This document shows, in pieces, positions 5,082 to 64,000 of a DNA stretch of 64,000 nt. The stretch is from Oscillospiraceae bacterium (GTDB taxonomy: Bacteria; Bacillota; Clostridia; Oscillospirales; Oscillospiraceae), in contig AP025582.1 of the NCBI GenBank assembly GCA_022846075.1, forward strand, positions 2,914,001-2,978,000, in the 5' to 3' direction. The number at the start of each line of letters is the position of its first letter. The first letter of the stretch is position 1. Both the position numbers and the translations under genes were made by a program. The notes under the pieces are model-generated. The model did not search any database, was not told the origin of the DNA, and saw nothing but the letters and a program-made list of their open reading frames with translations.

Positions 5082-5088
5082 CTCTACC

Positions 5089-5094
5089 CCTCCT
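5089..5094 (-). promoter_or_regulatory. Shine-Dalgarno site of the downstream operon gene
   Basis: The minus strand reads AGGAGG here, followed by GGTAGAG and then ATG at 5081. It is a consensus ribosome-binding site at 7 nt spacing and fixes the start of the 3'-truncated gene. Confidence 0.85.
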
Positions 5095-5118
5095 CTCATC
5101 CAAAAATAGGCGCAAGGA

Positions 5119-5152
5119 CCCACAGACTACATTATGATATGTAGTCTGTGGG
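5119..5152 (-). terminator. Perfect 12-bp hairpin over the stop codon of the upstream operon gene (possible attenuator)
   Basis: CCCACAGACTAC (5119-5130) and GTAGTCTGTGGG (5141-5152) are perfect inverted repeats around a 10-nt loop. The TAA stop of the upstream gene (5134-5132) lies inside the loop. On the minus strand the stem is followed by about ten mixed bases and then a short T run (CTATTTTTG), so it is a weak intrinsic terminator at best. It may be partial termination between the two operon genes or an RNA-processing or stability element. Confidence 0.5.
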
Positions 5153-9967: not shown

Positions 9968-9975
9968 CCGGCGGC

Positions 9976-9982
9976 TCACCTC
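9976..9982 (-). promoter_or_regulatory. Shine-Dalgarno site that decides the start at 9967
   Basis: GAGGTGA on the minus strand matches seven bases of the anti-Shine-Dalgarno complement and lies 8 nt before ATG at 9967. The GTG at 9979-9977 is part of this site, so the ATG is the better start. Confidence 0.7.
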
Positions 9983-10205: not shown

Positions 10206-13200
10206 TCAATTCCAGGGCTCGGGAAGTGTTCTCCGGGGACTAGTGTTGTTATCCATCCAGAACTGGACCAGAGTCGACTGAGTCTTGTAACCCATAATGT
10301 AGTCCAAATCCACCACATTCAGCTTGCCGTTCTGGTCATAGTCCAGCATGGCAGGCAATGTATTCGGGAACACACTAGTATTGCTCATGAGTGTCATCAG
10401 CATGATCTGAACGTCTTCTTCGCTTCCCAAATCCTCCAGGCCCATATCGTTCTGAGCCATATTCTCAAGGATCTGGTCCACCAGCTGATTTGTCAGCTCA
10501 TCGACAGGGTCAATCGGCTGTTCCACATCCTCAGCGGGCTTGTCGGGCGTCTCAGGTTTGCTCTCGCCCTTTCCAGGCTGGTCGGGCGTCTCGGTACCGC
10601 CCTCACCCTCGCCGGGCTGGTCAGGCGTCTCAGCGCCGCCTTCGCCTTCGCTGGGCTGGTCAGGCGTCCCGGTACCGCCCTCACCCTCGCCGGGCTGGTC
10701 AGGCGTCTCAGCGCCGCCTTCGCCTTCGCTGGGCTGGTCAGGCGTCTCAGTGCCGTCCTCGCCCTCGCTGGGCTGGTCAGGCGTCCCGGTACCGCCCTCG
10801 CCCTCGCCGGGCTGGTCAGGCGTCTCAACGCCGCCTTCACCCTCACCGGGTTGGTCAGGCATGTCAGAACCACTTTCGCCTTCATCGGACTGGTCAGGCA
10901 GTTCCGCGCCTCCTCTGGGTTCTTCTCTCCGCTCCACAGGTCTGACAGTGACCACCTCGTAAGTGACCTCTATCGACTGGTTCACGGATCCACTCTCCCC
11001 AGAGGTCTCCTCCTCCGGCTCCGGAGTCTCTTCCGTCGGGGTTTCCTCAGTGGAGGTCTCTTCGGCCGGAGTTTCTTCGGGCGCACTGTCCTCCGCCGGG
11101 TCAGAGGGCGTCTCTTCGGGCGAATTGGGAAGCTCATCCGGTCCGGCCGGTTCTGTGACCTCCGGCGCCGGGTTCTCTTCACCCGAGGGGACATCCCCGC
11201 TGTCGTCCGGCATCACCGGATCGGGAGCAGGTACAACGCCGTCGGGCTGGGGCAGACTGTTATCCGGTGCGGCGGTGCTGTTTGTACCGCTGGAAACGGT
11301 CAGCTCGCCCACCTTGACAAACGCTGTCAGGCCCTTGTAGATGTAGCCCACATACAGATAGCCGCTGGTGCCGTCCGTCAGTTCGGCGGGGATCTGGTCT
11401 CCCGGCACCAGGACTGCCTCGGCCTCCACCAGGCTCTTGGCGTTGGCACTGCTGCTGAAGTAGAACTCCACCTGATACTCGGCCATAGCCTGTGCCGAAG
11501 GCACCAGCTCCACCGCAGCGCCGTCGCTCTGCTGATAGTAGACCGACATGCCGCTGACGTCGAAGAGGTCGCCGGGCGCCAGGGCCACATCACCATTCAC
11601 AACATGGGTGTTCATGTTCAGCAGGCGCTGCGCCATCTCCTGGTACACGCCCTCCATGGCGGAAGAGTACTGGGTGAACAGTTCCACGTCCGCATCGTCG
11701 ATGACACCGTCGTTGTTGACGTCACCGGCCCGAACGCCCAGGTTCTTCAAGGAGAACTGTGCCGGGATAAAGGTATCGGAGATCCGGAGGTTGTCCACCA
11801 CGTTGTCCAGGAAGCCCGGACGGGACGCCACCAGGGTGTAGACGCCGGCCGTACTGATATCGGTATCCAGGAACTCATACTTGCCGGTGGTCTTGTCGGA
11901 GACCAGCTGTTTGACCTGGGTCAGGTGTCCGGCGGCCACCAGGGCGTCGAAGCGCTCCCGATAGGTGGCTTCCGCCGCCAGGCTCACCAGCGGATTGTCT
12001 CCGGAGGTGGCTTCCAGCACGGAGAGGTAACCCATGTCGGCGCTCTTCTTGTAGAGGGTGACATAGGCACCGCGGTCGGCGCGGATGGCCGCGCTGGTGG
12101 TACCCAGCACCCGGGTCTGGAAGGTGGCGGTGTTGCCCTTGGTATCCCGGTAGACCGTGATCCAGTAAGTACCCACGCCGCCGCCCGGCTCGGTCACCCG
12201 CACCATGAACTTGTCGCCGCCGTTCAGGCCGGTATCCAGGTACACGGTATGGGTCAGGATCACTTTGCCCGGCTCGCTGGTGGTGTCGGTGGTGCCCGCG
12301 CCTCCGTCGGTGCTGGCCAGGAGCACGTTGTCCTTGAAGAACTCCAGCTTGGAGCCCTCCACGGCCTTGGCGTTGAGCTCCATCTCGTTGGTCAGGGCCT
12401 CCACCAATACGGAGTAGCTGTACCGCTCCACGTCGAAGACATAGGGTGCGGTGTCGCCCGTGGGATCCACAGGATCCGTGGGATCGGCTTCCTTGTCCAC
12501 GCTGGGATCGTCAGGCGCCCACACCAAGCCCTGATCCGCCACATAGGCGGGGGCGCTGGCCGAGGGATCGTACCTGTTGTTCCCCTCGCCCTTCCACATC
12601 ATCTCGAAGAGGTCGCCCTGGGTATTGTCGGTGACCCAGATGGTGTCCAGCCTGCCGGTGTTCTTGCGGATGATCTTCAGCACGTAGGTCGTGTCCACGC
12701 TCTCCGAGTCGATGCCCGGTGCCTCGCTGTGGCCGGTGACGAAGAGCCAGCTCTCCGTCTCGCCGGGCTGGAGCTTCACGACCACGCTGCCGAAGCCGCT
12801 GGCATCCAGGTCGGTGACGGTGGGCACGCCGTGGTAAGTGACCACCATCTGGTTGGCCAGGGAGAAGAGATCGGAAGCCTCCACATTGATGTACTCGCTG
12901 TCCATGGAGAGGTTGATGGTGTAGTACTTGATGCCGGGCTGGAAGCCCTGGCCGTCCAGGTAATCGGCGGGCGTGTTGCCCACCATGCCGTCGATGCCCT
13001 GCATCAGCGTGGCCGGGGCATTCACGTGGCCGACGGCCGCGGGCTCGGTGGCGCCGTAGTACACCTTCATGTCGCCCAGCTCATGGGGATCGTTCTGACG
13101 CCGGTCGCCTCTCACCGCCAGCAGATAGTACTCGGAGGTGCTGCCGGTCTCGGTGGTGGTGACGGTGAACTTCAGCAAAGCCTGGAACTGCTCGTCGGCA

Positions 13201-40200: not shown

Positions 40201-43200
40201 GTAAAGTGGGCGTAGATCTTGCCCAGCTCCTCCATGGGCACTTCCAGGAAGGTGTAGTAATCCTTCCCCTCCAGGTTCACCCCGTCGGGGTTCTTCAGGT
40301 CGGAGGGCAGGCCGGTCTCGACCGCGCCGCCGCCGGCGGTGGGCCCGTAGCCGGTGCCCGCCGTCCGCTGCCAACCGCTGCCGTTCTGCTGCCACAGCGT
40401 CACCCGGTCGGTGGTGCACTCCAGCACGATGCGGATATCCGCCACCACCTTGCCGTCGGGCAGGACTCTGGGGATGACGTAGGCGATGGCCGCGTTGGCC
40501 AGGTCGCCGCGGCTGCTGTGCTCGTCGACGGCGGAGGCAGCCGCATTGCTGTTCACCGCGTCCTGGAGGTTCTGGGGCACCTGGCCCAGCTGGAGGGTGC
40601 CGTTTTCGTAGTAGAACTCGCCCATGGTGAGATAGCCGTTGGTCACCAGCTTGTTGAGGTAGCCGGTGGTGGCCTTCTCGGTGGCTTCCTTGCTCTCCAC
40701 GTTGTCGGTGGTATAGATCTGCTCGGTGCGCTGGCGCTCCACTACCTGCACGCCGGTCTCCACCACATAGCCGGACTCGACGTCGGCGGCCTGGAGGGTG
40801 GCGGAGCCGATCTGCACGCCCACCACCTTGTCCACGGTCCCGGTGATGTCCATGGTGGCCACCACGTCGGGATCGGTGAGCACGGTGCCGTCGGCCAGGC
40901 GGTGGTTCACCAGGCTCCAGGCGGGCTCGAAGGCCGGGCCGGCGTCCTGGTTGGCGATGTAGAACCGGCTGACGTTGGCGGTCACGGTCTGGGCGCTTCC
41001 CACGGGGATGACGATGTCACTGGGCACGATCCCCGCGGAGCCGCCCAGGACCAGGGTGGGCCGGTAGGTCTTGGCCGCCTGCTCCTCCATGGGGATATCC
41101 AGGCTGGCGTCCAGGATGGAGTTGTTGCCGATCTGGCCCCGGTTGTTGTAGCCGAAGGTATACAGCAGGCCGTACCGGCTGTCGTTGTGCTCGCCGATGC
41201 GGGCGAAGGTGGAGAAGGCACCGCCGGCGGAGACCAGCTCCGCCCGGTAGGGCTGGGAGGTAATGGTGCCGGCGCTGTCCTCCGTCTGGTATTCCACACG
41301 GGTGGGCACGTCACGCAGGGTGTCGTCGCCCAGGCCCAGGCGGCCGTAGCGGTTGTCGCCCCAGGTGTACACCGTCTGGTCGGCGGTGAGGGCGATGTTG
41401 TGGGTGGCGCCCACGGACACGGACACCACGTATTCCTCGGCGTTGGTGTCGGGGTTGGTCACGTGGATGATGTGGGGCGTGGGCTTCTTGCCCGGGGTGG
41501 GCGTCACATCGCCGCCCTCGTAGATGTGCTCGCCGTCGCCCAGCTGGCCGTAGGTGTAGTCGCCCCAGGCGATGAGCCGGCCGGTGTTCAGCATGCCGAT
41601 GGTGTGGTTGATGCCGTCATAGAGCTTGATGATCTTCTCGCCGCTGTTCAGGCAGCTCAGATCCAGGTTCATGATGGCGGGGCGGTCATAGATGCCCAGG
41701 CCGCTGGTGTTGAGCTGGCTGTCGCCGTTGTAGCCCCAGCCCCAGAGCGTGCCGTCGTAGCGGACGATGCGCACGGAGTTGCTGCGGGTTCCGTCGGAGA
41801 CATCGATGACCTTGCTCATGCCGGTGACCAGCTGAGGCTCGTAGGCGGAGACGCCGGTGCCGGAGATACCGGTACCCAGCTGGCCGTACTGGCCGTCGCC
41901 CCAGGTGTACACCCGGCCGCCGGCGGTGAGGACCACGGTGTGGTTCAGACCGGCCACGGCCTTGATGGCGGTGGAATTCTCGTCCGCGCCGGTGAACCGG
42001 TCCACCAGGGTGGGCACGGCCACGAAGGGCACGGTTGCCGGGTCGAGACCCAGGCCCAGCTGGCCATAGGTGTTGTCGCCCCAGGTGTAGACACGGCCGG
42101 CCTTGGTCATGGCCACGGCGTGGAGGTTGCCCACGGCCACCCAGGTCACCCGGTCCTTGACCAGGTGGGCCGTGCCGTTCTCCACCACGGTGTCCTCGGG
42201 CAGGATGCTGTCGAAGTCCACCAGGGCGGGCACCTTGGCCAGCGGCGTGGTGGTGACGCTCTGGCCCAGCTGGCCGTAGGAGTTGTCGCCCCAGGCGTAG
42301 ACCTGTCCGTCGTCCTTCAGGGCCACGGTGAAGTTGTACCCGGAGGCCACCTGCGGGGCGTTGCGGGAGATGTAGCTGCCGTTCTCCACGTCGCCGGGCA
42401 GAGTGGTGACGTAGTAGACCACCTGCTGGTCGCCGCAGGTCAGGATCACATGCGTAAAGCCATAGCCCTTCACATCGCTGGAGGAGGCGTCGCTCTTGGC
42501 GCCGGTGATCCAGAACCGCTTGTTGTCCGTGTCGATGGCATTGCTGGAGGGGGCGCCGGTATCCGTGCTGGGATAGGCCACGTTGACGGTCCTGGTCTCC
42601 AGCTGGGCGGTGCTCTCGTCCACGTTCCACTCCTTCAGGAGGTTGAAGCGCTTGCTGAGGAGGTAGGGCACCTCCACCGTCTCGCCCTCGTGGACGGTGA
42701 CGATGTGTTTGCTGGTGGGCTGGCCCTTCTCGCCCACGATGATGGGCGTGTCGGCCAGGGTGTCGTTCTGGGCCAGGACCATCTCGCCGGCGGCATAGTT
42801 GCCCATGCCGTACACGAGGCCGTCCGCGGCGGCCAGCACGGAATACTTCTTGCCCGCGTTCAGGTGGGTGACCACGATGCCGGCGTCCTCCAGGTAACTC
42901 TTGTTCCGGGTGGGCGCGGTCACGGCGGTCCGGGTCTCCGAGGTGCCCAGACCCAGCTGGCCCATGTCGTCGCTGCCGAAGGCCTGGACCACGCCGCCCT
43001 TCACCAGCAGCAGGGACTGGTCATAACCGGCGGAGATCTCCACCACGTTGCTGACCTTGTCCACGCTTCTGGGCTTGGCGAAGGCTCCGGTGGCCTCATA
43101 GCCCAGCCGTCCGTCGGCGGTCTTGCCCCAGCTGGAGAACTGGAGCGAGTAGCTCAGGGCCAGGGAGTGGCTGTCGCCGGCGGAGGCGGCGACGATGTAG

Positions 43201-46200
43201 CCGTTGTCGGCGCTCTGGACGAAGAGGGGCACCGCGCTGTATCCGGCGGCCAGCTCGCCCACGCCCAGCTTTTGGAAGTCGTTGCCGCCCGCGGCGTAGA
43301 GGTTGCCGTCGGCGGTGAGGAACAGGCTGTGGTCGGTGCCGGCGGAGATCTGGGTCACGTTGTACAAGTCCACCTTGGCGGGGGCGGTGACCGCGGGGGC
43401 CACGGCCTCGTCGCCCAGGCCCAGCTGGCCCTTGTCATTGGCGCCCCAGGCATAGACCTCGCCCGCTTCCGTCAGGGCCAGGCTGTACCCGTCGCCGGCG
43501 GCGACCGCCACGACCCGCTTGCCGTCCAGGCCCTTGACCTGGACGAACACGTCCTTGTACTCCACGCCGGTGGCCTCGCTCTTCAGCGGCAGGCCCAGCT
43601 GGCCCCGGTCGTTGGAACCGGCGGCCCACACTCTGCCCTGGCTGTCCACCAGCAGGCTGTGGTCGGCGCCGGCGGCGGCGTTCACGAAGACCAGGCTCAC
43701 CGGGTTGACCATGTTGCCGTTGGTGTTGTCGCTGTTGAGATCGTAAGCCTGGACCTGGGCCGGGTCGTCGTGGCCGTAGATGGCGGTGCCGTCGGGCAGG
43801 GTGCCGTTCTGGTAGGCCGCGGAGCCCTGGTTGCCGATGCCCAGCTGACCGGTGTAGACAAAGACTCCGGTGTCGTCCAGATAGCCGTTGAGGCCGTATG
43901 CCCAGACGGTGCCGTCGGCCCGGAGGGCCATGGTCTGGCCGCTGCCGGTGACCACCTGGACCTGGGCCAGCTCCTCCCGGGGCTTGTACACGGCGGTGAC
44001 GTCGGTGTCCACAGCGGGCACAAAGCTGACGGTGTTGTTGGCGCAGCTGGTATCCGGGCAGAACACCTCGCCCTGGGTCCCGGCGGGATCCACGGCATAG
44101 TCGCTCTGGTCGGCGGTGTTTCCGCACACCGGGCAGGTGATGGTAGTGGTCGTGGTGACGCTCTCCGCGGCCTCGGGGCCGTCGGCGTCCAGGACCACGA
44201 TCTTGAAGTAGGCGTTCTTGTCCAGGCTCCCCTGGCCCGCCACGTTCATGTAGGTCACACCGGCGTTCCGGGCCGTCAGGAGGACCTTCTGGCCGGAGAC
44301 CGGGATGGTTTGGCTGGGATCGTCCGGGTCGGGATAGGAGGTGGTGCCGGAGTAGGTGCTGGCCTCCAGGTGGACCACCTCGCCGTCGCCGGCCGTGCCG
44401 GACACCTCGTTGAACTTGGCGTTGTAGGCATAGTCGTACTCGATCCGCTCCTGGTCGGTGAACATGCAGAAGTAATCGAAGTCGGTGGTGAGGTAGTAGT
44501 CCTCGCCCTCGATCATGTAGAAGGTGCCCGCGCCGATCTGATGGACCGACTCGCTGCTGGTGTCGAAGACATACAGCGGATCGGTGGTGGAAGCCGCGTC
44601 GCTCACGCTCACCAGCTTGTACACGCCGTCGGTGGTGTCATAGGTATAGACCCGGTAGATGCCGCTGCTCACGTCGACGGGGGTGATACCGGCGAAGGCA
44701 GCGGGCAGGCCGGTGCCGTCGACGCCGTTCCACTGGTAGAACTGGCCGATGCGCATCTTGCCGGTGCCGTCGCTCATGTAGGTATAGTCCTCGGCATAGC
44801 TCACCTTCAGGGCGCTGTTGCCCACCAGGGTCAGGAGGTTGGCGTCCACGGTGGTGCCGTTGGCCAGCTGCTTGCTGCCGTTCTCGCCGGCGCCCCAGAG
44901 CATACCGCGGTTGTCCATGGTGATGAACTGGTCAAATCCGGCAAAGACGTTGAGGTAGGTCAGCCCGCCGTCCTGATAGATGCGCTTGGGCATGTAGTGC
45001 CTGGCCTCGTCGCTGCCCACGTAAGGACGGGGATCGGTCTCCTCCCGGCTGCTGTCGTCCAGGCCAAGCTGGCCCACGCTGTTGAGGCCCCAGGCGTAGA
45101 GCTCGGTGGTGCCGTCGTCCTTTTTCACCAGAGCGTAGGAGGTACCGCGGCCGGCGGCGATGTCCACCACGTTCTTCAGGCTGCGGTCGCCGTCGCCATT
45201 CACCTGCTGGCCGCTGATGACCAGGGCGGGGGCGGTGGCGTCGGGGGTGAAGGAGCCGTTGGGCACGTCGTTGTTGATGCCCAGCTGGCCGTAGGTGTTG
45301 TCACCCAGGGCCCACACGTGATTGTTGAGATCCAGGGCCAGCATGTGGTCGCCGCTGGCGGCGATCTTCACGATGGGGCTCTCGGGATCGGTGGGGTGCT
45401 CCTTGAAGCCCAGGACCCGCACGTTGGCGGAGTTGTGGCTGATCTTCCACACGGAGCCGTCGGAGTGCAGGGCGTAGTTGCCGCTGACGGACACCACGCT
45501 GTCTGCGCCGTTGAGGACCACGGGCAGGGCGGCGCTGTACGTGCTGCCGGAGGCGTAGATGTGGCTGACGTAGGCGTCGTCCTGGGTCAGGACGAACACG
45601 TCGCTGCGGTATCCCTCGGCGGTCCAGGTGTCGGTAACGGTGAGATCCGTGGCGTTGGTGATGGCGGCGCCGGTGTTGTCCACCATGAGGACGGGGACGG
45701 CCACGAAGTTCTCAGAGCTGTTGGCGCCCAGGCGGTACTGGGTATTATCGCCCCAGGCGTAGGCCTTGCCCTGATTGGTGATGGCATAGGAGGTGTTGGC
45801 GGAGGCGGCCACGTAGGCGATGGTCTCGCCGTTGGCCGTATCCAGGCCGGGGAAGGTCACCATGTTCATGGCGGCGTAATCGCTCCGCCCCAGCTGGCCG
45901 TAGCTGTTGTCGCCCCATGTCCACACGGTGCCGTCCGACTTCAGCGCCACGGTGTGGTGCTCGCCCAGCGCCACCATGGGAGTGGCCACGGCGTTGAGGT
46001 CGCTCATGACCTTGATGGTCACGTAGGAGACGGTGGAATCCAGGCCGTCCACCATGACCTTCAGCATGGTCTGGCCGCTCTGGGTGCCGGTGAGGTAGTA
46101 GTGGCCTTCCACCAGGGTGGGATCGGCGGCCGCATCCGCGGCGGTGGCCTTGTGGAGCCCGGCGACGGTGTTGTCCACCAGGGCCCCTTCCCAACCGGCG

Positions 46201-49200
46201 TTGGAGGAAGCGGTGCCGCCCCGGAGCAGCAGGTTCACGCCGGCTTCGTAGGTGACGCTCAGCAGGTCGGTGAGGTCCTTCTTCTCCCCCACCAGGACGG
46301 TGACCAGGTTGGGGGTCACCCGGATCTCCTGGGCGCCCACCAGGGTCAGGTTGGTGGCCTTGGTCCCGGAGAGGTTGTTGCCCAGCTCGCCGTAAGTGTC
46401 GCTGCCGGAGGCCCACATGAAGCCGTCGCTCTTCATGGTGAGGATATGGCTGTTGCCGGCGGCAAGAGCCAGGATGCTCTTGGCCTCCTCGTCGGCGGCG
46501 TTGGTGCTGTCCACCTTGGTGGGATGGCGGGCGGTGAGGCTGCTGCTGCCGCTGCCAAGGGCCAGCTGGCCGGAGGCGTTGTCACCAAAGGTGTACAGGT
46601 TGTACATGATCTGGGTCTTGTAGACGGAAGTCACGCCGTCGCTCTCGAAGAGGAGATTCCCCTCGGGATCGGTGGCCTGGATGGGCGCGCCGGTGCCGTC
46701 CTTCACCAGCTCCTCTTCCTTGACGATGACGCCGGAGAAGCCGTTGCCGGTGACCACGTTCACCACCTGGCCCAGCTGACGGTACGTGGTGGTCCCGTCG
46801 CCGTTGTCCACCGTCACCCGCACGGGGATCATGTCCCGCACGGCGGCGGGGTAGCCCACGGTCTCGTCGGTGGTCACGTCGTCCCCGTCGGGCTTGCCGT
46901 AGGCGGCGCTCTCGTCGATGATGCCCAGCTGGTTGCGGTGGTTGGCCCCCGCACCCCAGAGCTTGCGGTCGGCGTCCAGGAGCAGCATGTGGGAGGTGTT
47001 CTGATCCACCTCGCCGTAGACATACCGGTCGGAGTGGCCGGACAGGGCGATGATGTTCTTGTTCTTCAGATCCTCGTCGGTCTCGTCGCCGGCGCCGGTG
47101 AATTTGCCCAGCTCCGCCTTCTTCACGTCGGGGCTGGTGGAGCTCTCCGGCAGGGCCCAGACGGTGCCGCTGCCCTTGAGGGCGTAGCCCTGGCCCACCT
47201 CGATGGTCCGGGCCAGCAGGGAGAGCTGGACGGGCTTGGCGCTGTAACCGATGCGGCTGCTCAGCTCGGCGTCGGTGAGGGTGGGATACTTGACCTTCGC
47301 CGCCTCCAGCATGAACTCCTCGCCGTCGCCCGCGGCAAACAGAATGCCGTGGGGGTCGACGAAGTAGCTGGTCTTTTCGCTGGCGAAGATACCGGTAATG
47401 GTGGCGCCGTCCAGGGTGACGGGCTGCGGGGTGCGGAAGATGGTGTTCTCGCCGGTGATGGGGTCGGGCTCCAGGGACAGGCCCAGCTGGCCGTACTCGT
47501 TGGAACCCCAGACCCACACCACGCCCATGTTGTCCAGGGCCATGGCGTGATCCCGCCCGGCGGCGATCTGGATGATGTAGCGCTGGTCGGCCTCGTCGGC
47601 GTAGGCGGAGGCAAAGTCGAAGTTGACGACCTCCGGGGTCAGGCTCATCTCGCCCTCGATGCCGTTGCCCAGCTGGCCCTTATCGTTGTGGCCCCAGGCC
47701 AGGACGGTGCCGTCGATCTGCAGGGCGATGCTGAAGCCGTCGCCCGCCGCCACCTTGGGCAGGGCCACGAAGGCGTGGCTCACCTGCTCCTTGACCACGC
47801 TTTGACCTACGGCGGTCGTGGTGTCGCCCTCGGGGATGATGTTCCCGCCGGCGTCATAGTTGGTCACAGTCTTTTCGGACTCGTCGGGGCCCAGGATGTT
47901 GACGATGGCCACGCCGGTCATCTCGGCGTCCACCACCCGGTCGCCCTCTTCCCCGCCGGTCGCCTTGGGCTTGTAGCGGACGATGAGGCGGGTGCTGCCG
48001 TACTCCTTGCCGCTGATGGTCACGTCGTCATAGGTGATGATCTCGGTGCGCAGGCCGTCGGTGGAATAGGACAGGTGGGACTGGCGGGTGCCGATGTCGT
48101 CGCCCGCGGTGGACAGGCCGCTCAGGCCCATGATATCGCCGTCCAGGGCCTCATAGGTGAGCTGGCGGGTCTTCTCCTCGTCCACTTCCTTATCCACGCT
48201 GAAGGAGTACATGTACTTGGCCACCAGCCGGTCGGTCACGCCGGCGTCGCTGGTGCTGGTCCTGCCGATCTCGTTCCCGGCGGCGTCGTAGGTCACTGTC
48301 TCCAGGGTGGTGGGCACCTTGATCTGGAAGTTATAGTTGCCCGTCTCGGTGCGCACCAGCTCGCCCTGGTCGTTGAGCTCCTCCACCACCTTGTAGACGG
48401 CGATGTGGGGCTCGTCCACCCGGCTGGGCTTGTTCTGGATCAGGATCTCATCCGGGTGCAGGGGGTCCATGCCATAGGTGAAGTTGCCGATCTGTCCATA
48501 GTGGTTGGAGCCCCAAGTCCAAACGATGCCCCGGGTATCGAAGGCGGCGGAGTGGTTGCCGCCGGCGGCCAGGCTTTGGAGCTGGACGCCCTCTTCCAGA
48601 TAGGTCACGCCGTTGGAGGGCTGGAAGATCTCGATCTTCTGGGCGCGGTTTACATAACCGACGTTGGCGTCCATACCGGTCTTGTAGTTCTCGTTGTTGC
48701 CCCAGCCCCAGCTCTGGTAGTCGCGGCTGATCACCTTGCGCACGGCGCCGGAGTAGTCATAGACCGCGTCCATGGTGACGGCCAGGATCTGCACGGGGGA
48801 GCTGTTGGCCTCGTCGGCGCTCTGGTAGCCGCCGATGGAGATATCCACCACGTTCTTCAGGGTCATATCCAGGTCGGCGGACATGTCCTTCGTGCCCACC
48901 TGGACCTTTACGGGCTGGGTGGCGAAGTCGTCCGAACCGAACCACTCCGCGCCGCTGGCGTTGGTGTAGAGCCACTTCTCGGCGCCCACCTGGTGGGACA
49001 TGTTGTCGCCCCAGACAAAGGCTTCCTTCTCCTCGCTGATGATGGCGAAGTTGTAGCCGTTGCCCACGATCTTGTTGATATCGCGGATCTCCTGGCGCTC
49101 CACCACGTTGCCCACCCGGTCGCGGCTCTCGGCGGAGTACTTGACCCGCACCAGGGTCAGGCTGCCCTGGGTGGCCTTGGCGGCCTCGCTGTCGCCGGAG

Positions 49201-52200
49201 ACGGGATAAAGCCCGCTGCCCAGCTCGCCGTGGAGGTTGGAGCCCACGGTCCACACCGTGCCGTCGGTGAGCAGGACCGCCGAGGTGGCGGCGGTGGCGG
49301 CCACTTCCAGGACGTTGTCCAGGTAGAGGTCGCTGAAGCCCTTCATCCGGGTGGGAACCCAGGTGTAGGCGGCGTTGATGGCGGCCGCGTTGTCGTTGGT
49401 GGTCTTGCCGTTGCCCAACTGGCCGGCGTTGTTGCGGCCCCAGGCGTAGACGGAGCCGTCGCTGGCCAGGGCCAGGGAGTGGTTGGACCCGGCGGCGATG
49501 GAGATGATGAAGGGGTTGCCGGGGATGTTCACCAGGGCGGGGTAGTTGCTGTACAGGATGCCGCCCATGCTGTCGCCGCTTCTGACGCGGAAGCCCAGCT
49601 GGCCGTAAGTGTTGTCGCCCCAGGCATACACCCGTCCCGTGGCGTCCAGCGCCAGGGTGTGGTTGTCGCCGGAGACCACCCGGAGGATGTTCTTGAAGTC
49701 CTTCTTGCTCAGCTGATCGTCGGGCAGGGTGGGATCTTCCACATAGTAGGTCAGCTCAATGGGGGTGGTGATAAGCTCCTGGGGGCTGTCAAAGCCCAGC
49801 TTGCCGTACATGGCCTCGTTCCCGTTGTAGGGATCGGTGCGGATGGAGCCGTCGTCGCTGCGGTAAGCGTTGTCGCCCCAAGCCCAGACGGTGCCGTCCT
49901 TCTTCAGGGCGGTGGAGGTGTCCTTGCCCAGCACCAGCTGCGGGTAGGTGACGCCGTCGGTGACGATGACCCGGGTGAAGGCCACCTGGTTGCTGATGGT
50001 ATCCCGGACCAGGACGCGGGTCTCGCCCTCGCGGACGGCGTAGATGGTGCCGGAATCCTGGCCGGTGGGCACCACTTCGGCAATGGACTCGTCCATGGAC
50101 TTCCAGACATAGTTGTTCTGGCTCTGGCTCTTGTTGCTGCCGGCGGAGTAGACCAGCAGCATGTCGCCGGAGGCATTTCCGATGTTGACGGTCTTATTGC
50201 TGTCGCCGATCAGGTTCAGGGTGATGGTGCTCTCCAGGCTGATCTTGGTGGAGCCGGAGACCACGGGATAGGAGGTGCTGATCTGGGCGTGGTTGCCCAG
50301 CTGGCCCTTGGTGTTCTTGCCCCAGGCGTACACGATGCCGGTATCGGCGTGGGCCAGGATGTGGCTGGTCTCGGCGTTGCCCGCCGTGGCGGACAGGCGG
50401 ATCACGCCGGCGAGGTAGTCGTCGCCCACGCTGGTCTTGTACACCAGGCTCGGGGTCTTGCGGATCTGGCCGTTGGAGTCGTTCCGGTCGCCCAGGATGC
50501 CGCCGTTGACGTCGGGGTTGGTCCCGTTGGTGCCCCAGGTGTAGACGTAGCCGCCCTCGGTGATGGCGCCGGTGTAGTTCTCCCCGGCATAGACCCGAAC
50601 GATGTCGTCCACCACGCTCTTGTCGGTGTAAGGCTCCTGGGAGACCAGGGCGGTGACCGCCTCGGCGTCCTCCACCAGCTCATCGGTGATGGTCCGCAGG
50701 GCATCTAACAGCTGCTTTTTGTCCATGCTGCCGCCAGCCCCATAGGCGTCGATGATCGCCTGGGCCTTGGTGTAGAGGGTATGGGCGTTGACATAATGCT
50801 GGGACAGGGTGCTACCGCTGGCGGAGTCGTAGGTGGCGGCAGCCACCAGGTCGTTGTAGTGCTTGACGGCGGCGTTCCAGCTCACGAAAGCGCTGTCCCG
50901 CAGCTGGGTGGCGTTGGTGACGGCGCCGGCCAGAGCCTTTTCCTTCTGGTTGGCGCGGGTCCAATCCACCTGGACATCCTGGAACCGGGCCATGACGGCC
51001 TTCATCTCGTTCTCGGTCACAGGCGTGGTGGTGGTGGCCTCGTCGTTGAAGTCCGCCACCGCCTCCTGCATGGCCTTGGTAAAGGAGAGGCTGTCGATGG
51101 CCGCCTGGGTGGGCGTGCCGGTAATGGCCACGCCGATCATCTCGGCGGTGCCGGTGTCGGAGACATCCTGGGTCGCGCCGCTCCCCGGCGCGCCGGCGTC
51201 CATCCGGTTCTCCAGGGTCAGCAGGCTGTTGATGAAGTCCAGACGGGCCTGGTGGAGGGTCCCCTCGTTGGAGGCGACGGTGGCCACGGCGGCGTCATGG
51301 TTGGCCTGGGCCTCCGCCTGATCGTCGGTGGCGGCGGCCAGGTCAGCGTTGGCGGCCAGCAGGTCGCCGTAGGCGGTCTGCTTGTCGGCGGCCAGAGCGG
51401 CCAGCTCGTCCGCGCCCGCCCCGGCGGCCACGGCGGCGTCATAGGCGGCCACAGCGTCGTCGTAAGCGATCTGCTTCGCGGCCTGGGCGTCAATGGCCTG
51501 ATCCCGGCGGTACCCGGCGTTGATCAGAACCTTAGAGAGGTTGTCCTCGTTCTTCCGGGCGGCGTCCAGGGCCGTGTCGGCGTTGGCCAGGGCCCGGCGG
51601 GCGTCGTCGTAGGTCTTGTAGTCGTCCTCCACGAACAGGTAGTTGGCCTTGGCCTGCTTGTAGATGGGATACCCCTCGTAGAGGATGGCGGACAGCTCGT
51701 TGACGTAGGCGTCGTGGAGGGCCTGGGCGGCGATGCCGCTGGTGTCCTTGCCGTCGCCGTTCATGGTGACGCCGTTCTCGGCGGGGGTCTTGGTGAAGTC
51801 CGCCACCACGCCGGAGCTCACCGTGCCGAAGTAATCGGTCCAGGTCTCCTTCAGCGCCTGCTCGGCCTCCTTCATGGCCTGGCCGATGATGTCGGGGTGC
51901 TCCACCAGGTAGTCGGCCAGGGTGGGCGTCGTGTTCTCGTCGAGAGCGGGCGTGCCGTCCTGGAGGCCGGTGCCGCCGCTGACGGGGGTCTTGCCGGTGT
52001 TGTACTGCCAATCGGGATCATAGCGCTGGCTGTACTTAAACACCACGTCCCAGGCGCTCTGGTAGAGCTCCACCAGGCGGGCATACTCGGTGCCGGTGAA
52101 GTAATCGTACTCGGCGGGACGCTCCAGGGTGGCCCCGTCCGCCGCAGCGTCGCTGAGGACGCCGTTTTTGTTGGTGCCCAGGAGATAGAGGTGCTTGAGC

Positions 52201-55200
52201 AGATCCTTCCCTCCGGCCACCACGGCGGCGGTGTTGGTACCGGGATCGATGGTCACGCCGGTGACCACGTTGTCGTCGGGCTCCATGGTCATAAAGACGA
52301 TCTGGTTCTTGCCCATTCCGGCGTCCACCACGCCGCCCTGATAGCGGGCGGGGACGGTGCCGTCGGCGGAGGCCTGGATCACCATGGGCTGGGGATAGGC
52401 CGCCACGTCGGTGGAGGCGCCGGTGCCCACAAAGCCGTTCTTCTGGCTGCCGGAGACGTAGAGCATCCCGTCGGCGGTGAGGATGAGCATATTGCCGTCG
52501 GTGAAGTACACGTCCATGGCGTTGTCGATGCCGGGGACCTTGTGGGGATAGAGGTAGTAGGCGCTGTTGCGGCGGGCGCCCAGCATATTGCTGGTGCTCT
52601 CGCCCCAGACGTACACCTGTCCCCGCTCGCTGATGGCGGCGGCGGCGTTGCCGTAGGCGTAGACCCGGACGATCTTGCCCGTCTCCTCGGAGGTGCCCAG
52701 GGCGCTCTTGCCGTCCACGTCCTTCACCTTCTGGGGGACGTAGTAGGGCGAGGTGCTGGCGTAGTCGCTGTTGAGGCCCAGGGAGCCGGAGGCGTTCAGG
52801 CCCCAGGCGTACACGGTGCCATCGTCGCTGACCGCCAGGTTGAAGTTGGCGCCCGCGGCCACGGAGACGATGCTGCCCATCTTGGTGCCGTCGCCCAGGG
52901 TCACCCGCTCGTGGCCGGTGAAGAGGGCGGTGGCCATCTGCTGGGTGCCCACCTGTCCGTACTGGTTGGCGCCCCAGGCATAGACCTCGCCGTCGGCGGT
53001 GAGGGTGATGCTGTGCTCAAGGCCCGCGCCCAGGCCGGGGGCGGCGATGAGCCGGTCGGGATCGTCGTCGAAGTACCGCTCCGTCTGGGGCAGGACCTCG
53101 ATCTCCACGAAGGCGTAGAGCTCGCTGGTGGCGTCGTAGGCCACGATCTTGGCGTTGCCCACGCCGTGGAAGGTCACCTGGCCGTTCTGATCCACCGTGG
53201 CCACAGCGTCGTTGGTGGAGGCAAAGCGGTAGTCGGGCACCAGGTCGAAGGGATGCTCGTTGTAGACGTTGAAGCAGTCCAGGCTGGCGGTGACGGTGCC
53301 GCCCAGCTCGTTGAGACCGGTGGTCCCGGCGCTGGTCAGCATGTGGACGGTCTTGCCGCCGCCCTGCCAGTCGTGCTCCTGGTCGGCGTAGGCCAGGTTC
53401 ATCCGCAGGGAGTAGGTCTGCACCGGGTACTCGGAGAAGGCCTTCCCGGTGATGGGATCCCGGCCGATGGACAGCTTGCCCAGCTGGCCGTAATCGTTGG
53501 CGCCCCAGGTGAACACGTCGCCGTTGCCGATGATGGCGGCGGACAGGCCGGAGGCCCGGGTCTGGCCGTTGTCGTTCAGACGGCTGTTGCCGCTGCTGGT
53601 GTCCACGGCCACCACGTCCCGGATGGTGTTGTTCAGGGTGCCGTCGGGATCGGTCTCGCCGGCCCAAACGCTGCGCATGGTGTTCTGGCTGTTGGCGGTG
53701 CCGTAGGTACCGATGCCCAGCTCGCCGGTCAGGTTGTAGCCGGTGGCCTTGACGGTGTCGTCCAGCCCGTCGGCGGCGTGGTAGAGAGCCATGGTGGACT
53801 GGCCGCCGCCCACCCACTGGGCGCCGTCCAGGGCGCTGTTGTACTGCAGGGTCTCCACGTTGGTGCCGGAGGTGCTGCCGTTGCCCAGCTGGCCGTAAGC
53901 CTGAGAGCCCTTCACATAGGTGTGGCTGGTCCCGGCGCCGGTGGTGGTGAGGAAGAGGCTTCCGTAGCCGGAGTTGAGCTCCACCGCCCGCTCGCCGGCG
54001 GGCACGTCGCCCATACCGCCGTTGGTCTGGTTGATGAGGTAGGTCACGTGGTTGGACCGGTCCCAGTCCACCATGGTGCCCCGCTCGTTGAGGGCCCGGG
54101 TGTCGCTGGTACCGTAGTTGGTGGTGGCCACGTCCACGATATTGGCCTCGGGGATATAGCTGGGCAGGGACACGGGCACGCTGCCGCCCAACTGGCTGGC
54201 GGCGCCGCTGCCCCACAGGAAGAGGTCGCCCTTGTCGGAGGTTGCGTAGGCCACGCTCTGCTTCTCGCCGGAGCCGGTGACGACCACGCCGGTGTACACG
54301 TCGGCGATCTTCACGCCGTAGTCGGTGAACAGCTTCACCTCGGTGGGCGTGGCGTAGAGCTTCTCCACGCCGCCGTCGTCCAGGTAGCTGCTGACCTTGC
54401 CCACGCCGATCTGGCCCACGTTGTTGCGGCCGAAGGCGTACACTCTGCCCTGGGTATCCACGGCCAGGGAGAAGTCATACCCGGCGGCGATCTTCACGAT
54501 CTTGGGCGCGCCCATGACGGCGGTGACGGCGGCCGCGTCCACGGCCACGGGGGCACCGGTGACCTGGTCGATGTCCAGATGGCTGCCCATATCGTCCACG
54601 GCGTACCAGCCGCCGTCGGACTCCAGGACCACGGTGCGGCCCAGGCCGTCCACGTAGCCGGTGACGGTGTTCTTGGGGAACTCCACCATCTTGGGCTTGG
54701 GCTCCAGGCCGCCGGCGGAGCCGACGCCGGTGCCAAGCTGGCCGTAGTCGTTGCGGCCCCAGGCCCACACGGTGCCGTTGGCCTTCAGGGCCAGGACGTA
54801 GTCCTCGCCCACGGAGATCTGGGCGTAGGCCACGGTCTCGCTGGAGGTGGCGTTGCCGTCGGCATCCTGGGCGTAGACGTAGGGCTTCATCACGGAGACC
54901 CGGATCTGGATGGTCTGGCTCTCGCCGGTATTATCGGTCACGGTCACTAAGACATAGGCGATGCCCGGGGTATTGGCAGTCAGGTGGCCCATGCTGTCGA
55001 CGGTTGCAATACCATCATCGGTGGAGGTATAACCCGCCGCATAGCTGCCCGCCGTCAACGCGGCGTAATCATTGAGCTTGATATTACTCTGGGTGCTGGT
55101 AATCAGGTTGAAGCCCTTGCTCAGGGTGAGCATCCCGGCCACGTCATAGGCCGTGCCCACAGGCAGGTTGAGCTCGTAGCTGTCGCTCTCCAGGGTGAAG

Positions 55201-58200
55201 CTGGCGCCCACCTGGGTGGCCCGGGTGGTGAGGGCGTTTGCCTGATCCTGGCCCTGGTGGCCGGTCTGGAGGACGTTGTTGTAGCCGAAGGCGTACACGT
55301 CGCCCCACTCGCTCACCAGAGCGGAGTGCCAGCCGCCGGGCGCGGAGGTGGCGGACAGGGTCTTGAAATTGTTGATGACGGGGGTGCCGTCCTTGAGCAC
55401 GGGGATGACGCCGCCGGAGCTGCTGGTGTCGCCGTTGCCCAGCTGGCCCTTGATCCCGGCGCCGCCCATGATGATCCGGCCCGCGCCGTCGATGTAGTAG
55501 AGGCTGGCGCCGCCGCCGGCCAGCAGGATGTCGTCCTTCCGGCGGGCGTAGTCGGTGCCGGAGGCGGTCTCGTCGCCCATGAGGGTGGGGCTCTTCACGA
55601 AGGCCTCGTTGGTGGGCATGACATTGTTGCCGTTCCTGCCCCAGCCGTAGAGGCTGCCGGTGACGTCCCCGGCCACCATGACGGCGTTTCCGGCCTCGTT
55701 CTGCTTCATCTGGAAGAGGACGGCCACGGCGTTCTGGGCGCCGCCGGCCACGGCCATGGCCCGGTAGGGCAGGACGGCGGAGCCGGAGATGCCGGTATTG
55801 GTCTCGTTGCCGAACTCGTAGTTGGCGTTGCTGCCCCGGGTCAGGATGGAGCCGTTGGCCGCCAGCATGAAGGCGGTGGCGTTCTGGCCGATGGAGACCT
55901 GGGCCACCGTACCGGCGGAAGTCCGCACGGTGATGGGGGTGTAGAAGGCGGGGGTGATGAGCTGGGAGATCTGCTTCTCGGTGTTGTCGCCCACGCCGAA
56001 GAGGTTGTTGCCCACGTTGAGGCGCTTGACCTCGTAGGCGCCGGTCTCGGCGTTGAACACCACCCGCTTGTAGTAGGTGCTCTGGACCAGCAGGCCGAAG
56101 CCGTGGTCGGCGTCGATGCCGCCGGCGGCGATGTCCACGATCTCCTGGATGTAGCCGTCGGAATAGGTGCTGGTCACCTGCTGGCCGGCCTTCATCTGGG
56201 TGGCGTAGGCCACCTTCTCCCCGGCGTCCTTGCCCAGGCCCAGCTGGCCCCGGTCGTTGCGGCCCCAGGCCCAGACCGTGCCGTCGTTCTTCAGCGCGTA
56301 GATGAAGTTGCCGGCGGCGGAGAGCTTGCGCACGTTATTGAGGGGGACGATGGCGCTCTTGAGGATCGCCTCGCCCTGGGCGTCCTGGCCCACCACCTTG
56401 GTGACGTTGGCCATGACCTGCTGGGGCGCGGCGTAGGTGCCGTAGAAGGTACCGATGCCCAGCTCGCCGTACTCGTTGGAGCCCCAGGTCCACACGGTGC
56501 CGTCCACCGCCAGGGCGGCGGTGAAGCCGGTGCCGGAGACCACCTGGGGGAAGGACACGCTGTTGCCCCGGGCGGCGTCGTTGGCCTGGAAGGAAATCCG
56601 GTTCTCCGGCGCGGGCGCCTGGGCCCCGTCGGAGGGTGTGCTGCCGCCAGCCCCAGCCGAAATGACGGCTGCGGCATAGCTGTTGAACTGGTCGTAGATG
56701 CCCTGGTACTGGCCGCCGGCGACGCTACCGCCGCTGACCAGGTCGGTGTCCACCCCCGCCGCGGCGGGGCCCAGGACGTCATTGTCCCTCGGGCGGACCT
56801 CCACCTTGAAGGTGCCCACGATGAGCGGGTCGTTGGTGACCGAGATGACGATATAGGCGGTGCCCCGGTTCTTGCCGGTGATGACGGCCTTCTTGTCGTC
56901 GTCCTTGTAGTCCACCTTGACCACGCTGTTTTCGCTGACCTTGTAGCCCGGATCGGTGTTGGCCATACCGGCCCAGTTGGAGTCCTTGGTTTCGTCCCAG
57001 ACGAACCAGGCCAGCTCCACGGTGGTGGCGTCCTCTTCCACGTTGTTGAAGACGTTGAAGGCGGACAGCAGCGGCTCGTAGTTGAACTGGAAGGACTCTC
57101 CCTCGTAGATGGAGACCAGGTAGTCCTCCAGGATGAAGTAGGAGGAGCCCACCCGCACGGGCACGTCGCTGGCGGTGGAGGTGCCGTCGCCCAGACGGCC
57201 GTCGCCGTTGGCGCCGTAGGCCCACAGGGAGCCGTTCTTCTTGATGAAGTTGGAGTGGTTGTCCTTGGCGGAGACATTGTTGGTCACGTCGATAACGCCG
57301 TTGACGTACTCGCCGGCCACACCGGCGGAGCCAACGCTCACCCGGCCGGGCACGCCCCAGCGGCAGCCGCCCATGTCGTTGACGTACTGCATGTCGGCCA
57401 CGGCGCCCTGGGCCGGGACCTTCTGGCCGTCCACAAGGACAAAGCTGCCGGTGACGGTATCGTACTGGTACCACTGGCCGTCGTCGGCGTTCCAGGCCAC
57501 GTCGGCGCCCGTGCCGTCCGTGCCCAGGATGCCCCAGGTCACGCCGGCGGTGTGGCCGATGACGCCCCACTGGACCCCCTTCTGGGTCAGGTCGGTGTCG
57601 CCCCACTGGGTGCCGTCGGGCAGGATGGAGTAATCGATGCTCTGGCGGTTCTCGTCCAGGTTCGCGCCCTGGCCCAGGCCGGGACCGTAGATCTGGGTGA
57701 GCTTGTCGTTGGCGGCCAGCTCCTCGGCGGTATAGTAGGACTCAAACTTGCCCACGGACCACAGGTTTGTGCTGGAGTAAGCCACCTGGAGATACTCGGA
57801 GATGTCGGCCGACACCGGGAAGGTGGTGTACAGAGGCACGGCGATGGGATCGCCCGACAGGTTGGCGGGCTTCTTGGCGCCGGTGGTCTCGTCCAGGAGG
57901 AACTGGTTGGCGGCGTTGATCTTGTACCACAGGGTGTCAACATCCCGGGCGATCCGGTCGCCGTCGTCATCCTGATAGTCAGTGCCGTACTGGTAGCCCA
58001 GGCTCAGCGCCTCGAACACGGCGGGCAGGGCGTGGGGCGCCGACTTGAACTCGGTGGTGGTGGTGTCGGGATAATACATGGGATCGCCGGCGGCGTCGAT
58101 CTTCTGCTCGTAGCGGGTCTCGCCGGTGTCCGGGTCCACGATCTCTTCCAGCATGGGGTCACCCGGGATGACCGTGGTGTCCCAGTACCAGCCGTTGGCA

Positions 58201-61200
58201 TAGCTGGTGTCGTGGGTCCCGTTGCTGCCGTCGCTGCCGCCCCAGGTCTCCACCTTGCCGTCCATGGTGATGGCCACGCCGTTGTAGACGCCGCTGGAGA
58301 CCATCAGGGCGCGGCCGTCCAGCACCGCGCGGTCGGGCAGCTCGGTGGTGGTGTTGTAGCTTCCGTAGGCGCCGTACTTGTTCTCGCCCCAGGTCACCAC
58401 CTGGCCGTCCTTCTTCAGCAGCCGGGCATTGGCGCCGATCTTGTCGGCGGACAGGGTCAGGCCGTCCTGGATGGAGGTGGTCAGGCCGTTGACCTTGATG
58501 GGCAGGGTATTGGGTGCGCCGTAGGCGTCGCCGGTGTTGTTCTGCGGGTCGAGGATGCCGTGCCAGTTGGAGCCCCAGCCCCAGATGGCGCTGTTGGCGT
58601 CCAGGGCCAGAGAGTACTGGCGCACGGTCTTCCCGTCGGCGTCGGTGTAGCCGGCGGCGGCAATGTCCACGATGGCGGCGGAGTAACCGGCGGTGTCGTG
58701 GCCCAGATAGCCGCCGGAGGGGCCCTCCGGCCCGTAGACCAGGGTGGCGGTCCAGTATCTCTTCTGGGTCAGGGAGCCCACGCCGATGGCGCCCAGGCTG
58801 TTGTCGCCCCAGGCGTAGACCCGGCCGTCCCTGGTCAGGGCCAGGGAGTGGTTAGCGCCGGCGGCGATCTTCACGATGTTGGTCAGAGGCTCGTTGCTGT
58901 AAGTCTCGGGGTTGTAGACCATGACCTCCTGGGGGGTGATGAGCATTCCGGCGTCCTCACCCACGCCCAGCTGGCCAAAGTCGTTGCGGCCCCAAGCCCA
59001 CACGGAGCCATCCGACTTCAGGGCCAGGGAGTGGCTCTCGCCGGAGACCACCATGGGATAGATGGTGTCGCTGTCGCCGCTGGTGGCGGCGGGGATCACG
59101 TTGAGCTTGAAGAAGCCGGTGTTGCCCCGGTCGTCGGCGGCGATGATGTAGGTGGTGCCCACATCCCAGGCCTTCACAAGGCCGGTGACGGGATCCACCG
59201 TGGCCACCAGCTCGTTGACCGAGCGGAAGGTCAGCCCGCTGGGCACGTAGCTGTCGGGACCGTAAGCGCTGAAGCCCAGCTGGCCGGTGATGTTGCCCAG
59301 GATGATCTGGAGCTCGTCGCCCACGTTGATGGCGGTGGCCAGGGTGCCGTTGGAGCTCACCAGCGTGTCGTAGCGCATGAAGGCGGTGGAGCCGAAGAGG
59401 AAGGTCACGTTCACCGTGACATTGCCGGCGGGCATCACGAACTCGATGTGGTTGCCGGTAGCCCCCTTGGTCACCCGCACCGGCACGGTGTAGCCGGAGC
59501 TGCCCTCGGCAGTGGCGGTGACCTTGGCGTAATAGTTGACGGCGTTGGTGGTCTCGATGCTCACCAACTGCCCCGCCTGGGCGGTGAAGGTGTCGTTGTG
59601 GGACAGGACGATGCCGTCCACCGACACGGTGTTGCCGGCGTTGCCGCCCGCCTCATAGGTGTCGGAGATTTTCACGGTGCCGGTGAAGCTGTCGGGGGCG
59701 CTGGTGTCGAAGTAGGCCCGGATGGCCACGTCGTCGGCGGGCATCACGAAGGTGGCCACGGTGGCCACAGCGCTGCCGCCGATGGCGGTGGGCACCGTGA
59801 CGCCGGTGGTCAGGGTGAGGGCCGCGACCTTGTTGTCGCTGCCGGTGTAGGAGGTGGTGGCCCGCTTCACGAACCGGGTCTGGGTGACGGGGCTGCCGCC
59901 GGTGTAGTCGTCCACCGCGGCGTCGGGCACCATGGCGATGGTGACGACGCTGCCCATGGGCACGCTCTGGCTGGGATCCCAATAGCTGCCGTTCACCAGC
60001 ATCCAAAGCCGGTCGTTCACCGTGTTGCTGCCGCCGGCGGCGTCCACGCCCACGTTGGCCGACTCGCCGTCCAGGGTCACCAGATGGCCGGTGGCGGAGG
60101 CGGCGCCCACGGCGGCCACTTCCACGTAGACCGTGACGCTGTCGGAGGGCATGGTGAACGTAGCCTCCAGCGCCGTGGCGGAGACGGCGCCAAAGGCGGC
60201 GTCCAGAGTCTCCACGATGCCGGTGGAGTTGTGGCGGACCATGGCGGCCACAACGGTGTACTGGGCGGGATCCAGCTCCACCACCACGGTGACGGTGTCC
60301 CCGGACTTGGCGGAGAGCGAGGCCGCCGCCGCGCCGGTGGTCCGCAGACCGGAGCCCGTCACGGAGGAGGCGGGAGCGGTGAGGTCCAGCACGGCGTTGT
60401 AGCTGGGCATGGTGCCGCTGCCGTTGAGGATCACGCTGGAGATATCCAGATAGGAGCCGCCGCCGTTGTTGTTGACCACCACGGGCAGCTTCTTGTCCGC
60501 GTAAGTGCCGTCGCCCAGCTGGCCGCTGGCGTTGGCGCCCCAGGCGTAGACGGTGCCGAAGTCGTTGTCGTAGGCCAGGGCGAAGTCGCCGTAGGCGGAG
60601 GTGGCGATGGACATGATGCGGTCAATGGGGGCGTTGGCATTGAAGGCGTTGGCCTCGCCAGCCAGGACATAGCCCGCCTGGGTGCGCTTGTACACCCGGG
60701 TGGAAGCGGGATCCCGCAGGTCATGGCCGATGCCCAGCTGGCCGTTGGAGTTGTCGCCGGCGGAGCGGACGGTCCGCTCGGTGAGGGTGATGCCGTCCTC
60801 CTCCAGGCCGCCGGTGGCGCCCTTGTAGGCCACCAGGCCGGTGGGTCCGGCGGAGACGTGGATGGCCGTGCTGGGATACAGGGTGTCCGTCGGGACATCC
60901 CAGGTATTGAAGTTATAGCTGTTGTTTACGGTGGCCACGGGGATGTAGGGACCCACGGTGTGGTCCTCCGGGTTGCCGGCGTCCAGGATATTCTGGATGC
61001 CCAGCTGGCCCCGGTCGTTGCGGCCCCAGACCACCACCCGGCCCTCGGTGTTGATGGCCATGACGGAGTTGTTGCCGGAGGACAGGGCCACCAGGTTGCT
61101 GTGGACGTCACCCTCGGCGTAGGAGGGGCCCCGGGCGATGATCTTGGCGGTGCCGAACTGGCCGTAGTCATAGCCGCCGTTGTTGTAGATGTTCTTGCCC

Positions 61201-64000: not shown

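Follow-up and report, generated by a model that had tools for sequence, protein, structure and literature searches.

The closest described counterparts of the locus presented here are giant proteins from Omnitrophota and from the Oscillospiraceae themselves. In its available text, PMC13104272 (the Microbiome Datahub paper, 2026) counts 19 proteins of >40,000 residues from these two groups, with maximum lengths of >57,000, and assigns Oscillospiraceae giants of ~40,000 residues to human, mouse and rabbit gut. Lengths of up to 85,800 residues are cited in the accessible part of PMC12057145. PMC10066038, in the sections available, describes a protein of 39,678 aa with 42 predicted transmembrane helices in Velamenicoccus archaeovorus and states that most giant frames of Velamenicoccia are poorly conserved. 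Giant1-5 of Apilactobacillus kunkeei, of 3,000-8,000 aa, contain beta-solenoid domains (PMC12863079, available text), and a survey of proteins >5,000 aa (PMC11573180) does not use the word RCC1 in its main text.

A single frame of 34,110 codons and its orthologues

The stretch of DNA analysed (64,000 nucleotides, hereafter the window) corresponds to C1:2914001-2978000 of the source genome, G000, from a gut-type relative of the Oscillospiraceae, which consists of a single contig (C1) of 3,230,334 bp. Giant gene A, whose C-terminal part it contains (Table 1), extends over C1:2924206-3026538 on the minus strand, i.e. 102,333 bp and 34,110 codons with no internal stop, and encodes a predicted protein (giant A) of 3.60 MDa with a pI of 4.45. 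The gene represents 3.2% of the G000 genome, and the cluster that it forms with the large downstream genes to C1:2887273 represents 4.3%. The initial annotation had seen in the window a stop-free frame open at its 5' end. This is indeed the case, all 17,930 codons of gene A in the window standing in one frame, and following the contig upstream located the 16,180 missing N-terminal codons with a start codon and a signal-peptide-like N-terminus. The rank that it gave the product among the largest bacterial proteins is sustained at 34,110 residues, without being a record since lengths of 39,678 and ~85,800 have been published. The start is a GTG immediately 3' of a TGA stop, codon 4 being an ATG, and, judged by eye, RIVSGILTASMTLSLLTGISGPGAAA at the N-terminus resembles a Sec signal peptide. 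A sequence of the form R(I/V/L)(V/I)SG(I/L)L(T/S)ASM is also present in the relatives.

Table 1. Features of the window, with window positions
Feature	Position	Strand	Basis or remark
Giant gene A, C-terminal 17,930 codons	10206..63998	minus	runs past the window to C1:3026538
RCC1-type propeller blades, share of the window	41097..63998	minus	PF00415/PF13540/PF25390, own profile, one model; lower limit approximate
Stalk, ~9,900 residues, partly cadherin-like beta-sandwich	11289..41096	minus	PF12733 and own profile; limits approximate
First dockerin-like calcium-binding motif, codons 33606-33617	11688..11723	minus	PF00404 below cut-off; pattern
39-bp tandem array, 9.4 copies, Pro/Glu/Gly-rich linker	10535..10899	minus	no other tandem array of the window was found at score 80
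Second dockerin-like motif, codons 34066-34077	10308..10343	minus	pattern
Gene B, secreted-looking, 1,615 aa, with a NNDRNINNID motif at the C-terminus	5132..9979	minus	226 bp 3' of gene A
Gene C, N-terminal part, dockerin	3..5123	minus	whole gene C encodes 3,329 aa, C1:2909134-2919123

Given that third positions are 91% G+C and that antisense frames reach 6,947 codons, stop-free length by itself is weak evidence of coding. Two such frames are open on the plus strand (window 29865-50708, 6,947 codons, and 15297-29789, 4,830 codons), and we read them as a by-product of the G+C-rich third positions. The coding status of gene A is based on the RCC1 and Cadherin-like Pfam matches, on the codon-position signature and on collinear relatives, including G156, whose orthologue has a third-position G+C of just 60% and yet is open over 32,702 codons. 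The signature (G+C of 0.61/0.47/0.91 at the three positions overall) keeps the same order in all 1,000-codon bins, although the third-position value drops towards either end, to 0.83-0.86 over the four bins at the start and to 0.83 and then 0.65 over the two final ones. Furthermore, second codon positions are more alike than first ones in 7/7 comparisons with relatives (0.593-0.637 versus 0.537-0.593), the likeness of third positions ranging from 0.394 to 0.599. As third positions exceed first ones in the high-G+C G077 and G014, this test is informative mainly in relatives of lower G+C such as G156 (0.537, 0.593 and 0.394).

Collinear orthologues of giant A, of ~31,800-40,690 codons, were found in seven relatives, so that eight proteins from three genera can be compared; incomplete copies in G151/G163, G152 and G167 are not part of these counts. 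Measured from stop to stop, five of the eight frames have neither internal stop nor gap, namely that of G000 and those of four relatives: 40,694 codons in G077 (40,690 when counted from its first ATG and ~40,650 from the methionine closest to the signal), 37,716 in G153, 32,702 in G156 and 32,325 in G175, the genome of which (3.67 Mb) is also a single contig. The frame of G164 has 32,936 codons, and its last part is unreliable because of a 100-N gap near the end. The initial annotation had regarded stop codons in independent isolates as a sign against an intact gene, and such stops do occur, one in-frame TAG splitting the frame of G014 into 8,036 and 30,029 codons (C1:158206-158208) and that of G116 into 18,501 and 13,329 (C2:67427-67429, flanked by ambiguous bases on a contig with 945 N in 132,047 bases). 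As each of the two remains open beyond the TAG and can be aligned to the end, these codons are probably local errors or recent lesions; that of G014 may be an assembly error, a recent nonsense mutation or a site of read-through.

The relatives carry the same protein from end to end, which argues that giant A is real and conserved and no assembly error. Indeed, chained alignments place 27,216-29,922 of the 34,110 residues (80-88%) in order, at 39.2-45.1% identity, in 7/7 relatives. When giant A was cut into 170 tiles, 152-165 matched each relative and 139-164 of those lay in increasing order. With 341 finer tiles (own arithmetic), a same-position match was obtained for 337 in G175, 336 in G014 and 319 in G156, and it surpassed every other position for 336/337, 324/336 and 302/319 of them, and the best G000 paralogue for 336/337, 320/336 and 302/319, respectively. 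This better fit at the same position implies that the array expanded before the lineages of these copies split.

The locus is patchy. The N-terminal 560 residues have matches in 4/150 family genomes and the N-terminal profile in 8/16 genus genomes (G000 included in both counts) and in 3/6 well-assembled ones (>=90% complete, <=5% contaminated), so that giant A is not essential to the genus. An N-terminal alignment search of contigs returned five loci, of which three are recorded as Oscillospiraceae, one as Ruminococcaceae and one as Eubacteriales; the records matched include CANRFC010000001.1, CAJMXB010000002.1 and CANQVO010000003.1. RCC1 as such is present in 65/300 sampled family genomes, and more than 200 first-look RCC1 candidates occur just in G000, G014, G116, G164, G077 and G175, the next highest number being 76. 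In G240, another genome of the family, two RCC1 matches (C11:77259-77384 and 87782-87907) lie ~10 kb apart in frames of 3,383 and 3,267 codons; these are possibly shorter cousins or an ancestral stage.

Propeller array, stalk and C-terminal end

RCC1-type blades span ~24,000 residues of giant A. A profile built from its own blades detects 215 of them between codons ~526 and 23,775, and PF00415 scores 467.8-683 bits in each of six segments, which together span codons 1-22,512 except for one codon at a border, and 285.6 bits in the following 5,000 codons, for a curated cut-off of 21.7. Within groups, blades are mostly spaced by 50-90 residues, and groups are separated by ~150-300 residues, sometimes more. 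At seven blades each, 215 blades would make ~31 propellers, hence a protein with an estimated ~30 RCC1-type propellers and spacers; when groups were delimited at 150-residue gaps, 18 of the resulting 41 had exactly seven detected blades, the others being split, merged or under-detected. Some spacers resemble group-2 bacterial Ig-like domains, one by a Big_2 Pfam row and otherwise by eye. Counts of blades and of cadherin-like units are lower bounds, as weak repeats may escape the profiles: in the window, at least 60 blades and at least 21 cadherin-like units at E<0.05 (iterated profile) were found where the initial annotation had counted >75 and 60, respectively.

A unit of the array (codons 23310-23800) was modelled from four paralogue rows of the window, with a mean pLDDT of 68.3 and a pTM of 0.73. 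A search of the PDB with this model gave 1,236 matches at E<=0.001, the best being UVR8 (E 1.3e-26), RPGR and RCC1, and the unit is thus predicted to be a closed propeller that resembles solved RCC1 folds. On the other hand, we claim no fold for the conserved N-terminal domain, because its model, built from four relative rows, is of low confidence (mean pLDDT 53.8, above 70 just at residues ~41-160 and in short stretches) and its PDB search returned no match at E<=0.001, the weak rows being mostly S-layer, cadherin and adhesin proteins. Zinc-ribbon-like CxxC pairs were noticed at codons 3505-3654, 9182-9208 and 22802-22805 (the last at window 44124-44135) of a protein otherwise poor in cysteine (52 Cys); between 2 and 24 pairs of this kind occur in the relatives, some of them in matching positions.

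The array is largely kept, in both number and order of blades, in three genera: of the 215 blades of G000, 206-215 are aligned in each relative and 173-210 of those fall on a detected blade, and a refined profile counts 202-224 blades across the eight proteins.

In the 10,390 residues that follow the start of the last blade, our own profile finds the cadherin-like units mentioned above, and helical-looking stretches are visible by eye in the rest of the stalk, the larger part of which received no domain assignment. The two dockerin-like motifs lie ~505 and ~45 residues from the C-terminus, 460 residues apart. By pattern, the first is kept in 6/7 relatives (absent from G014), as is the second, G164 being unreadable there because of its 100-N gap. 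The dockerin Pfam profile reaches 17.5 and 18.9 bits on giant A for a cut-off of 22.9, over positions 1-23 of 57, and giant A contains no complete dockerin by this profile. Neither an S-layer homology (SLH) domain (Pfam rows of all scanned segments), nor a sortase motif (LPxTG in the last 100 residues), nor a membrane anchor was found in giant A itself. Apart from the signal region, no hydrophobic segment is common to the relatives in Kyte-Doolittle windows, a crude test rather than a helix predictor, in which 0-3 scattered windows per protein exceed 1.8.

A 1-kb piece of the array compared with its own genome gave secondary matches of 69-93% identity and no more than 136 bp in length, among the 40 that were scored out of 170 candidates, and no tandem array at score 80 was found in the upstream segments that hold the rest of gene A. 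A collapse of the assembly is possible in the C-terminal linker, and hardly so in the blade array.

Downstream cluster, secA and the history of the locus

In G000, gene A is followed 3' by B, C and genes for proteins of 1,404, 460, 5,032 and 368 aa, with large secreted-looking proteins among these neighbours. SLH domains were detected with Pfam, in this genome only, in the 5,032-aa and 368-aa proteins and in the C-terminal part of C, which lies outside the window. B also carries dockerin-like motifs and C a dockerin. Homologues of B and C stand 3' of A in G077, G116 and G175 (BLAST), and frames of like size with similar ends in G153 and G164; G156 retains B up to the contig end, and the frames after A in G014 look broken. 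Searched for on its own, B is present in 7/16 genus genomes; it was not found in G014 and G152, and it occurs in G161 without a detected A.

Several details of this region were noted on the way. The 1,404-aa frame of G000 (C1:2903490-2909101) aligns at 33% identity with residues 9-1384 encoded by a G175 frame of 3,420 codons, and the 460-aa frame does not continue this match; the fourth cluster gene of G000 looks truncated or rearranged, judging by this comparison. A secreted-looking frame of 1,675 codons lies within the cluster of G175 (C1:247229-252253), and its sole match of >80 residues to the six downstream proteins of G000 covers 98 residues of the 460-aa frame. A tail of the form W...ID(E/K).W.YHD.A.DG is common to the 5,032-aa SLH protein (C1:2888395-2903493) and to two frames of G014 (C1:41269-42387, 373 codons, and C1:42391-61443, 6,351 codons), and it may serve all three in sorting or in binding to the wall.

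Upstream, secA stands in the same direction as gene A in all six genomes with both genes on one contig, at distances (own arithmetic) of 26.6 kb in G000, 5.5 in G116, 11.1 in G164, 7.1 in G077, 8.5 in G167 and 42.3 in G175. It is on other contigs in G014, G153 and G156, where the contig that carries A reaches upstream of it by ~23, 3 and 14 kb, respectively. A second SecA dedicated to export was considered and rejected, as a single SecA of G000 exceeds the cut-off and the one further match is weak and falls below it.

The trees of SecA and of giant A do not tell the same story. In the SecA tree, the seven members of the genus stand together with a support of 100/100, G000 sharing 88.8% identity with G116 and 79.7% with G175. 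The giant A tree was built by a quick search, with SH-aLRT as its sole support measure, from 20,065 columns selected through their mapping to G000. In it, the closest to G000 is G175, and the closest to G077 are G014 and G153, although G175 and G077 belong to other genera. Forcing the genus together for giant A changed the log-likelihood by -1,135 (AU p 4.9e-8), a test weakened by long branches and by uneven composition (5/8 rows flagged). With other references, G175 again comes nearest to G000, and G077 nearest to G014 and then to G153; seen from G116, G175, G156 and G164 are within 0.5 points of one another. Mis-binning does not explain the case of G000, G116 and G175, since A and secA share a contig in each of these. 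We prefer to read the conflict as an exchange of the giant A locus between genera; an old duplication followed by losses is the alternative.

Possible function and place among known giant proteins

With a probability that we put at about 60%, giant A is best explained, from its predicted domains, as a wall-held multi-propeller surface fibre with ~30 binding faces. The protein would be exported via SecA, as may be expected from its signal-like start and from the one SecA above the cut-off, and would then form a beads-on-a-string fibre of ~0.5-0.7 micrometre if extended (own estimate). Its C-terminal region could be held at the wall by the SLH-bearing neighbour proteins, and the propellers may present ~30 different binding faces to glycans, host mucus, food particles or other cells. 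Every stretch of the array resembles its same-position counterpart far more than its paralogues, and this suggests that every propeller has its own job and that none is a filler copy. A bolder proposal, which we make only tentatively and would not bet on, is that the ordered ~30 propellers, each conserved individually, act as an extracellular barcode read in a fixed order, each being a separate recognition module, and that this barcode has been exchanged between genera by homologous recombination at a set place of the chromosome downstream of secA. If this were true, giant A would be among the most finely specified adhesive fibres produced from a single gene.

Among the other explanations, the one that fares best, while still unlikely, is that of an exported polyprotein, cleaved to yield numerous smaller propeller proteins: the spacers between propellers could be cut, and PMC13104272, in its available text, recalls an earlier study suggesting that such proteins may be processed, but the full collinear conservation, stalk included, is compatible with this scheme without being required by it. 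Improbable, too, is a weapon used in predation or to degrade cell walls, a role discussed for the Omnitrophota giants, of the same size class, in the accessible parts of PMC10066038 and PMC12057145. Giant A shows no hydrophobic-helix array, and at E<=0.001 Pfam lists no enzyme family for any segment scanned (bar single border codons). Two C-terminal stretches searched at E<=1 gave Cadherin-like and weak sub-cut-off rows, including Glucodextran_B, presumably a non-catalytic domain. We are no more inclined to see in the locus a scaffold of the cellulosome type, assembled through cohesin-dockerin pairs: the dockerin of C, the dockerin-like motifs of A and B and the SLH domains of C would fit it, but no cohesin was found at E<=0.1 in the G000 genome by a search that was positive in 2/14 control genomes, and the motifs of giant A, too far apart to be a single module, score below the Pfam cut-off. 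Finally, an assembly artefact, a chimaera or a decaying gene appears very unlikely, as the initial annotation had argued, since the in-frame TAG of two frames and the gap in a third stand against a protein common to eight genomes from end to end, two of them single-contig, with five frames free of stops and gaps, a codon signature throughout the gene and a sole tandem array at score 80 confined to the C-terminal linker.

Giant bacterial genes are open to doubt as assembly products. The order of giant A is kept across three genera at 39-45% identity, and this ordered conservation argues that selection can hold together a protein of ~34,000 residues. The locus also makes it possible to test, in gut bacteria, how a chain of 3.6 MDa is exported and attached to the wall, and what it does there.

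RCC1-like domain proteins such as RCC1, UVR8, HERC and RPGR are intracellular proteins with single or few propellers. Giant A shares with them the blade and the predicted propeller fold, but has ~30 propellers on a secreted-looking chain, and we know of no other RCC1 propellers in such numbers on a chain of this kind. In the literature searched, which excluded most subscription journals and preprints, no RCC1 architecture of such giants was found in titles and abstract starts.

The nearest counterparts by description, the only basis of this comparison, are the giants of PMC13104272, characterised in the available text by size, taxon and habitat and as having "numerous domains". They share with giant A the family, the gut habitat and the size class, the orthologue frames having ~31,800-40,694 codons, and G077 (40,694 codons) would belong to that set by family and length. 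With the Omnitrophota giants, as described in the available texts, giant A has in common a single frame of tens of thousands of codons and a proposed surface role; it differs by the absence of a helix array, by its RCC1 propellers and by its conservation from end to end, and 5/5 related loci are in records of Oscillospiraceae, Ruminococcaceae or Eubacteriales rather than Omnitrophota. Giant1-5 of A. kunkeei are alike in being consecutive, very large, extracellular(-looking) proteins of a gut bacterium, with a few internal stops, and they too are closer to their positional homologues than to their cluster neighbours (PMC12863079). However, they are shorter (3,000-8,000 aa) and made of beta-solenoids, and the word propeller occurs 0 times in the available text of that paper. 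The size class is already known in Oscillospiraceae and giant A holds no length record; what is new, as far as our searches go, is the propeller architecture, its fixed order and collinearity, the cluster with SLH proteins and the conflict between gene tree and genus.
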